This document shows, piece after piece, positions 21,334-23,791 of a stretch of 39,748 bases of DNA. Position 1 is the first letter of the stretch. Each line of letters begins with the position of its first letter. Both the position numbers and the translations under genes were made by a program. Under the pieces are notes generated by a model. It was not told where the DNA came from, did no database searches, and saw only the letters and a program-made list of their open reading frames with translations. The DNA is taken from assembly GCA_021814615.1 (NCBI GenBank), contig JAKAHZ010000017.1, positions 1-39,748 on the forward strand. The letters are read 5' to 3'. Source of the stretch: Nitrospirota bacterium (lineage in GTDB: Bacteria; Nitrospirota; UBA9217).

Positions 21334-21356
21334 TACAAGTCAATGAATGTCACAGG

Positions 21357-21387
21357 AGCCGCATCCTATCCGGATGCGGCTTTTTTT
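21357..21387 (+). terminator. Riboswitch-controlled intrinsic terminator
   Basis: AGCCGCATCC (21357-21366) and GGATGCGGCT (21372-21381) form a perfect 10-bp stem with a 5-nt loop, followed by seven T residues counting the last stem base. Located 24 nt after the TPP aptamer and 70 nt before thiS, it is the expected expression platform. Confidence 0.88.
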
Positions 21388-21457
21388 GTCACAACAAGTA
21401 AAGCAAATCCTGTCTCGCGCAGAGCCGCAAAGAACGCAGAGAAAGCAACTGCACCAT

Positions 21458-21658
21458 ATGAATATCTTCGTAAACGGCCAACAACGGTCTGTTCCCGACG
21501 GTCTGACGGTGAGCGGCCTGTTGTTGCATCTCGAGATCAAGCCGGAGCGCGTTGCCGTGGAGATCAACGAGGAGATCGTGCGCAAGACGACCTATGCCGA
21601 TGCCCTTGTGAAGGAGAACGACCGGGTCGAGGTGGTGCAGTTCATGGGGGGCGGATAA
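21458..21658 (+). CDS. thiS: Sulfur carrier protein ThiS
   Basis: The 66-residue product (ATG 21458, MNIFVNGQQRSVPDG) has the ubiquitin-like ThiS pattern: TVSGLLLHLEIKPERVAVEINEEIV, then DRVEVVQFMGGG. The C-terminal Gly-Gly is thiocarboxylated and donates sulfur for thiazole formation by ThiG. The track's 21347 start lies inside the terminator and an intergenic repeat. No clear Shine-Dalgarno sequence is seen; a half copy of the dispersed repeat (CGCAGAGCCGCAAAGAACGC) lies just upstream. First gene of the riboswitch-controlled operon. ThiF, its activating enzyme, is not in the window. Confidence 0.93.
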   Translation: MNIFVNGQQRSVPDGLTVSGLLLHLEIKPERVAVEINEEIVRKTTYADALVKENDRVEVVQFMGGG

Positions 21659-21728
21659 GGCTGACACGGCGACATGGCGACAAGGTGAGCGGGAAAACCG
21701 TCGTCGTCATTTTTCAGGAGGTGACTGC

Positions 21729-22082
21729 ATGGAGAAAAAAGCGTTCCTGAAACACTGGTCCAAGCTGAAGCCGAATCAGAAGCTCGTTCCAAAACCGGTG
21801 AAGTACACGCACGAAGGCAGCACCTATGCCGAGGACGGGATCAGGATCACGGGCAGCAGGAAGTTCGTGAACAGCGTGTTGTCGCGGCTGAAGGATATGC
21901 TGGCGCACGACAACGACGAGACGCGGCTCCAGGTCGTGTATCAGCGCAGCACGGACCGGGAGAGCGGGAAGACCCTGGCTTCATACAATTGCTACGTCCA
22001 GGTGCATGCACGGGGCGGAGTCAAGAAGACAGACAAGGCGAGCGGGCGACAAGGGGACAAGGTGATAATGAGGCTGCGGTGA
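21729..22082 (+). CDS. Unrecognised small protein inside the thiamin operon
   Basis: The 117-residue protein has a strong ribosome binding site (CAGGAGGTGA) before ATG 21729. It lies between thiS and thiG under the TPP riboswitch. The core (about residues 1-95) looks like a real folded domain: KHWSKLKPNQKLVPKPVKY, then YAEDGIRITGSRKFVNSVLSRLKDML, then LQVVYQRSTDRESG and SYNCYVQVHARGG. No transmembrane segment, signal peptide or known motif is visible. The last roughly 20 residues (KKTDKASGRQGDKVIMRLR) are encoded by the GACAAGG-type low-complexity repeat, so the original protein may have ended earlier. I do not recognise the family. A role in thiamin synthesis is suggested only by position. 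Confidence 0.7.
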   Translation: MEKKAFLKHWSKLKPNQKLVPKPVKYTHEGSTYAEDGIRITGSRKFVNSVLSRLKDMLAHDNDETRLQVVYQRSTDRESGKTLASYNCYVQVHARGGVKKTDKASGRQGDKVIMRLR

Positions 22083-22136
22083 CGCGGAGACGCGGGGAAA
22101 AAGTCGAACAAGAAACAATCGAAGGAATAACGGCAT

Positions 22137-22238
22137 TCACCGCGAAGGCGCAAAGGAAGCGAAGGAAACAGAATCGGGGCATAGAGGCAACGATATTGCG
22201 AGAGAAGAAGGACGTGGTTTTTTTCGTGCCTTCGTGAG
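22137..22238. repeat. Dispersed intergenic inverted repeat, copy 3, inside the thi operon
   Basis: The left arm TCACCGCGAAGGCGCAAAGG (22137 on) faces the right arm TTTTTTTCGTGCCTTCGTGAG (22218-22238). It fills most of the 179-nt gap between orf117 and thiG. The start of that gap holds the low-complexity run GACGCGGAGACGCGGGG. No gene is seen. Confidence 0.6.
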
Positions 22239-22261
22239 AGAAGGGTCTGGAGGTAGTGATT

Positions 22262-23041
22262 ATGAATAACGACAAGCTGGTGATCGCGGGCATCGAATTC
22301 CAGTCGCGGCTCTGGGTGGGCACCGGAAAGTACAAGGACTTCGACGAGACCCGGCGGGCCATCGAGGCCTCGGGCACCGACGTGGTGACCGTCGCGGTGC
22401 GGCGGGTGAACATCATCGACAAGGGCAAAGAGAACCTGCTCGATTATATCGATCCGAAGAAATACAAGATCCTGCCGAACACGGCGGGTTGCTTCTCGGC
22501 CAAGGACGCGATCCGCTATGCCATGCTGGCCGCGGAGGCAGGGATCACGAAACTCGTGAAACTCGAGGTCATCGGCGACGAAAAAACGCTCTTTCCGGAC
22601 AATGAGGCGACCCTGGAAGCGGCGAAGGTGCTGCTGAAGGAAGGGCTGATCGTGCTGCCCTACATGAGCGACGACCCGATCATGGCGAAGAAGCTCGTGG
22701 ACATCGGCTGTCCCGCAGTCATGCCGCTCGCCGCGCCGATCGGTTCCGGCCTGGGCATCAGGAATCCCTATAACATCAGGATCATCATGGAATCGGTGAA
22801 GGTGCCGGTAATCGTGGACGCGGGCGTGGGCACGGCATCGGACGTCGCGATCGCCATGGAACTGGGATGCGATGCGGTGCTCCTGAACACGGCGATCTCG
22901 GCCGCAAAGGACCCCATCGCCATGGCTGCGGCCATGAAGCACGGCGTGATCGCCGGCCGCCTGGCGTACAAGGCGGGCAGGATGCCGAAGAAGCTCTATG
23001 CAACCGCCAGCAGCCCGGTGGAAGGGATGATCACGTCATGA
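22262..23041 (+). CDS. thiG: Thiazole synthase ThiG
   Basis: The 259-residue TIM-barrel enzyme carries the ThiG features: [53 protein letters not shown] containing the Schiff-base lysine, [46 protein letters not shown] and ending [18 protein letters not shown]. It builds the thiazole phosphate ring from deoxyxylulose phosphate, dehydroglycine and ThiS thiocarboxylate. The track uses GTG 22256, only 2 nt from GGAGG; ATG 22262 has an 8-nt spacing and is preferred. ThiH or ThiO, needed for dehydroglycine, is not found here. Confidence 0.96.
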
Positions 23042-23146: not shown

Positions 23147-23791
23147 ATGGCTGTCGATTTCAGGCTCTATCTCATCACCGACCGGAAGATCGCGACGAAG
23201 CCGCTGCCTGAGGCGGTGAGGCTGGCGCTCAACGGGGGCGTGCGGGCGATCCAGCTTCGGGAGAAGGACCTTCCTGTGCGGGACCTCCTGGCCCTGGCGC
23301 GCGAACTGCGGACGATGACACGGGAATTCGGCGCACGATTGTTCGTCAACGACCGTGTGGATGTGGCGATCGCCGCAGATGCAGACGGCGTTCATCTGGC
23401 CCATGCGAGCATGCCGGCGCATGCGGTCCGGAAGATCGTTCCCGACGATTTCCTGATCGGCGTCTCGACGCACGATCTCGAGGAAGCCTGGCAGGCGGAA
23501 GCCGAGGGAGCCGATTTCATCACCTTCGGCCCCGTCTTCGCGACACCTTCAAAAATGTCCTATGGCCTGCCGCCGGGACCGGAAGCGCTCGAAGAGGCTG
23601 TGCGGAAGGTGGCCATCCCGGTCTTCGGACTGGGCGGGATCAGGCAGCGATCGATCGACACGGTCCTGGCTGCCGGCGCCTTCGGCATATCGCTTATATC
23701 GGGAATTCTTGCCGCTGACGATATCCGGCAGGCGGCAGCGGACATGTGCAGGACCATTCAAGGGACCCTGGCCGGGGAACGGCAGGGATAA
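23147..23791 (+). CDS. thiE: Thiamin phosphate synthase ThiE
   Basis: The 214-residue TIM-barrel protein has FRLYLITDRKI at the start, AIQLREKDLPVRDLL (the QLREK element), LFVNDRVDVAIAADADGVHLA, IGVSTHDLEEA, DFITFGPVFATPSK with the phosphate/thiazole-binding TPSK, and PVFGLGGI. It couples HMP pyrophosphate to thiazole phosphate to give thiamin phosphate. ATG 23147 is chosen over 23120 because AAGGA at 23135-23139 has the right spacing and family homology begins there. thiC follows after 10 nt. Confidence 0.95.
   Translation: MAVDFRLYLITDRKIATKPLPEAVRLALNGGVRAIQLREKDLPVRDLLALARELRTMTREFGARLFVNDRVDVAIAADADGVHLAHASMPAHAVRKIVPDDFLIGVSTHDLEEAWQAEAEGADFITFGPVFATPSKMSYGLPPGPEALEEAVRKVAIPVFGLGGIRQRSIDTVLAAGAFGISLISGILAADDIRQAAADMCRTIQGTLAGERQG

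Follow-up and report, generated by a model that had tools for sequence, protein, structure and literature searches.

The small gene orfX, which lies between thiS and thiG in a TPP-riboswitch-controlled thi operon of a Nitrospirota bacterium, was probably captured once from a phage gene family and most likely encodes a nucleic-acid-binding accessory protein, rather than a thiazole enzyme or a sulfur carrier. The window, i.e., the whole 39,748-nt stretch of DNA that was analysed, is an entire contig of a 3.5-Mb genome that is 94% complete. The operon follows the order TPP riboswitch, terminator, thiS, orfX, thiG, thiE and thiC (Table 1). The original prediction, that an unrecognised protein is encoded between thiS and thiG and controlled by a TPP riboswitch, was confirmed by the RF00059 match (75 bits) and by Pfam identification of both flanking genes. 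RNA folding of positions 21343-21395, which cover the terminator hairpin, gave −23.9 kcal/mol (z −5.6). No report of this arrangement was found in the literature.

Table 1. Features of the thi operon in the window.
Feature	Position	Strand	Evidence or remark
TPP riboswitch aptamer RF00059	21239..21342	+	cmscan 75.1 bits, gathering 54.3
Riboswitch terminator hairpin (intrinsic)	21356..21388	+	sequence GCCGCATCC-loop-GGATGCGGC, T run; RNA fold
thiS, 66 aa, ends GGG	21458..21658	+	Pfam PF02597 2e-16
orfX, 117 aa, phage-family small protein; conserved part residues 1 to ~98	21729..22082	+	
orfX non-conserved C-terminal tail, partly from GACAAGG-type intergenic repeat	22023..22079	+	absent in relatives
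thiG	22262..23041	+	Pfam PF05690 1e-110
thiE	23147..23791	+	Pfam PF02581 2e-58
thiC, 433 aa	23802..25103	+	ORF and translation; name from sequence alone

orfX is a real gene kept under purifying selection, because it is conserved in four other genomes, its copies have their own ribosome-binding sites and its dN/dS is low. The additional copies were found within the same family, in the window's own genus (g1) and in a second one (g6), and shared 68-76% identity over the alignment. The ATG start of orfX is preceded by AGGAGGTGA, and a purine-rich ribosome-binding site was present before every copy with an intact start. Pairwise dN/dS values ranged from 0.03 to 0.16 for orfX; in the same genomes, thiG gave 0.03-0.06. 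The proposed 117-residue reading frame was therefore upheld as a real gene with its ribosome-binding site, but not over its full length, as conservation ended near residue 98 and the remainder was partly encoded by a repeat. GACAAGG-type repeat units were located at 21663 (before orfX) and at 22048, where a unit extends across the 3' end of orfX and has altered the C-terminus; the relatives carry a short Lys-rich tail instead.

The distribution of orfX was determined in 14 genomes of the same class. All 14 carried thiG, with the order thiS-thiG-thiE retained wherever the contig showed it, and a TPP riboswitch was present at every thi copy tested. orfX was found in only five of these genomes, all belonging to g1 or g6, and the nine siblings had the same operon without it. 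In every copy whose contig extended far enough, the gene occupied the thiS-thiG spacer; in genome G012 it was split between contigs, of which one breaks off next to thiS and the second next to thiG. In a thiG tree of 13 genomes the five carriers formed a single clade (support 100/99), and therefore one gain, in the common ancestor of the two genera, suffices to explain the entry of orfX into the operon. A profile search of 396 Nitrospirota genomes yielded no further carrier. Two peptide patterns, run against 84,980 genomes, matched the same Nitrospirota only, a result that says little of other phyla, as the patterns were derived from the Nitrospirota copies. The thiG gene of genome G010 (L056-L057, G010:C140:13412-14181) consisted of two overlapping pieces and appeared to be frameshifted, possibly through an assembly error.

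Homologues of orfX were detected on distinct viral contigs of IMG/VR, with 49-65% identity over approximately 96 residues (1-96). Pattern scans combined with a local profile brought the number of distinct viral copies to about 30, which fall into two subfamilies; the family profile recovered viral members at E values of 1e-24 to 1e-56, some of these members being among its seeds. Subfamily one was found mostly on contigs of 5-80 kb (siphovirus-type) and ends in SYNCYIQVHERG, while subfamily two was found mostly on contigs of 35-532 kb (jumbo-type), has an N-terminal extension and ends in SxVFYxxxxxRG. A 595-kb uncultured phage also encodes a member. More distant forms (27-37% identity by tblastn, e.g., WP_012660124.1 and WP_254270766.1) occur on haloarchaeal plasmids. 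These plasmid proteins contain the same domain as orfX but differ from it in their location in mobile or defence islands and, in several members, in a CxxC N-terminal part that is fused to the domain and resembles a zinc ribbon (weak Pfam scores). Haloarchaeal members were positioned at 5788-6261 of L018, 4764-5222 of L062 and 4737-5225 of L063, the L062 copy being missing from the gene table.

The near-invariant signature of the family consists of GSTY-xx-DG-[IV]-R-x-TG and a C-terminal Y...RG, both present in orfX. Residues G30, T32, D36, G37, R39, T41, G42, L67, Y89 and R95 were invariant in the 34-row family alignment. Judged by homology across the whole core, orfX is assigned to this phage small-protein family, which received no name in Pfam, NCBIfam, PHROGs, PADLOC or PDB sequence searches. 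The analysis thereby defines a widespread phage protein family that is unnamed in the protein libraries used and has members in siphovirus-sized phages, in jumbo phages and on haloarchaeal plasmids. The thi copies share with the phage proteins full-length homology, the GSTY-xx-DG-[IV]-R-x-TG core and a C-terminal aromatic-rich strand ending in RG; unlike them, they are chromosomal, basic throughout and devoid of the phage REAQIMN-type C-terminal tail. Five large viral proteins (L088, L089, L095, L098 and L104) matched the short motif only, with scores at the level of chance, and were rejected as members.

In the family tree rooted on haloarchaea, the five thi copies formed one clade (100/99) within the siphovirus-type group, beside one phage copy (95/71). 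The direction of transfer we infer from the tree and the distribution together, which favour capture from a phage into the thi operon. The nesting of the cellular clade among phages is not proved by the tree alone, because a topology that unites all phage copies and separates them from the cellular copies was not rejected by the AU test (p = 0.20). The same test is compatible with a cellular protein having been acquired by phages. This reverse direction is, however, highly improbable, as the cellular copies are confined to two genera of one phylum, whereas the family is spread over many unrelated phages, jumbo phages and archaeal plasmids, and the haloarchaea-rooted tree nests the cells within phages.

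The surroundings of the phage copies point to DNA metabolism. SbcD and SbcC, in several cases with a Dda-like helicase, recurred within a few kb of the family gene in jumbo phages (loci L070, L072, L073, L078, L092 and L103), a linkage that may reflect shared descent. An SbcC-like ATPase was also encoded 2-4 kb from the family gene in two siphovirus-type contigs and was thus associated with both subfamilies. SSB, RecT, HNH and RadC occurred once each near phage copies. No single consistent neighbour was found among the phage loci, which varied apart from the SbcC/SbcD/helicase trend of the jumbo phages. The haloarchaeal copies were located near McrBC, BrxA, restriction, methyltransferase, helicase or ParA genes. 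In huge phages (L020 5017-5595, L094 and L099), a protein with an RF-1 domain (GGQ) was encoded approximately 0.8 kb upstream of the family gene.

The AlphaFold2 model of orfX, based on 34 family sequences, was confident, with a mean pLDDT of 93.4. It comprised a helix (3-12), a long ordered loop containing the GSTY..DG motif, a strand (38-42), helices (44-60) and two further strands (65-75 and 82-94). Foldseek found no significant match in PDB (best E 0.03 for the first model and 0.11 for the better one, TM ≤ ~0.4) and none among viral predicted structures. Alba, SpoVS and Rpp20/25 recurred among the top matches (E ≥ 0.03, TM ≤ ~0.4). Alba, SpoVS and the RNase P subunits Rpp20/25 either bind nucleic acids or belong to the same fold group, and the Alba fold has the order strand-helix-strand-helix-strand-strand. 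orfX resembles this group in its weak recurring matches, its strand-helix-strand-strand order and its long hairpin, but the first Alba strand is missing from the model, there is no profile similarity and the structural matches are not significant. orfX is not assigned to Alba (PF01918), given no Pfam match and an hhalign probability of 0.2%, the latter obtained with a weak Alba profile of two sequences only. The isoelectric points of all cellular copies were 9.8-10.1, versus 5.8-9.5 for phage copies, and four of the five cellular copies had Lys-rich tails. Taken with the phage neighbours, the basic charge and the non-significant fold resemblances suggest that orfX is probably a nucleic-acid-binding protein.

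The original prediction had suggested that orfX acts on ThiS, ThiG or sulfur delivery, a claim that is not supported, because all homologues found outside the two genera are phage or plasmid genes whose flanks, as far as read, hold no thi gene, and because nine siblings have the same operon without orfX. Co-occurrence with thi genes was observed for all five cellular copies and for none of the 72 loci from viruses and plasmids (635 kb), in which no thiS, thiG, thiE, thiC or thiD was found. The phage and plasmid copies are thus largely the kind of homologue away from thi genes that had been named as speaking against the idea, whereas thi linkage in cells was strict. The operon had also been described as lacking ThiF and ThiH/ThiO. 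Neither ThiH (TIGR02351) nor ThiO (TIGR02352) was detected over the cut-off in any of the 14 class genomes, with or without orfX, and the absence of these two was thus unlinked to orfX. ThiF-family E1 genes were encoded elsewhere in 13 of the 14. orfX does not replace ThiH/ThiO, because both were undetected in all 14 genomes regardless of its presence, and it was likewise rejected as a ThiF substitute, the distribution of these genes being independent of orfX. No Pfam or NCBIfam match connected orfX to profiles of thiazole-synthesis partners (ThiF, ThiH, ThiO or sulfur carrier). With the ThiS/ThiF/ThiG/ThiH/ThiO machinery orfX shares operon location and TPP control only; it differs from it in having no sequence relation and is not a replacement for any part. 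All 14 genomes contained thiS, thiG and thiE, yet the source of dehydroglycine for thiazole synthesis had no ThiH/ThiO candidate over the cut-off.

A present role in thiazole synthesis, in which orfX would bind ThiS, ThiG or the sulfur/glycine-imine donor and improve the reaction, either as originally predicted or through recruitment following capture, agrees with the thiS-thiG location that it has in g1 and g6 alike wherever this could be checked, the TPP switch, the low dN/dS and the undetected ThiH and ThiO. We nevertheless regard it as unlikely, as in the nine siblings the operon is without orfX and ThiH/ThiO are lacking just as in the carriers, none of the homologues elsewhere lies near thi genes and orfX has no Cys-based carrier motif. 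The basic protein, with its Lys-rich tail in cellular copies and phage relatives situated among DNA-metabolism genes, might instead be an RNA- or DNA-binding regulator that tunes thi expression beyond the riboswitch; this is quite improbable, given that sibling operons have the same riboswitch without orfX and that no binding site was identified. Even less is to be expected of a captured gene acting as an interference or defence factor that guards the cell from related phages or plasmids. Its phage origin and the BrxA, McrBC and restriction genes adjoining the haloarchaeal relatives would agree with such a factor, but no PADLOC family was assigned (one weak match, 0.015) and TPP control would be odd for this function.

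The preferred reading remains that a phage gene of the unnamed family would have been captured once into the thiS-thiG spacer, in the common ancestor of the two Nitrospirota genera, and retained afterwards by purifying selection. Presumed co-transcription with the thi operon would lead to its production when TPP is scarce, and the product would be a nucleic-acid-binding accessory of phage DNA-metabolism origin, basic and with a lysine-rich tail in host copies. Any present cellular role we infer; selection could be acting on a regulatory function, on an accessory function in repair or defence, or on a role in thiamin synthesis acquired later, which the strict thiS-thiG retention in both genera would also fit. 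It is rather doubtful that, in the two genera, a phage-derived nucleic-acid-binding protein has been recruited to serve the riboswitch-controlled vitamin operon as a functional component or as its regulator. If true, such recruitment would link thiamin status to the activity of a phage protein family. A small phage-family gene appears to have settled inside a core biosynthetic operon and is maintained there by selection, which serves as a warning that operon position alone can mislead guesses of function; here it misled on origin. With sibling genomes offering operons with and without the gene, orfX provides a compact and testable case of capture. Dispersed-repeat-like units (GACAAGG/GACACGG; GCGCAAAGGAAGCG) were also observed in the thi-operon spacers at 21400-21450, 21660-21690 and 22040-22250.
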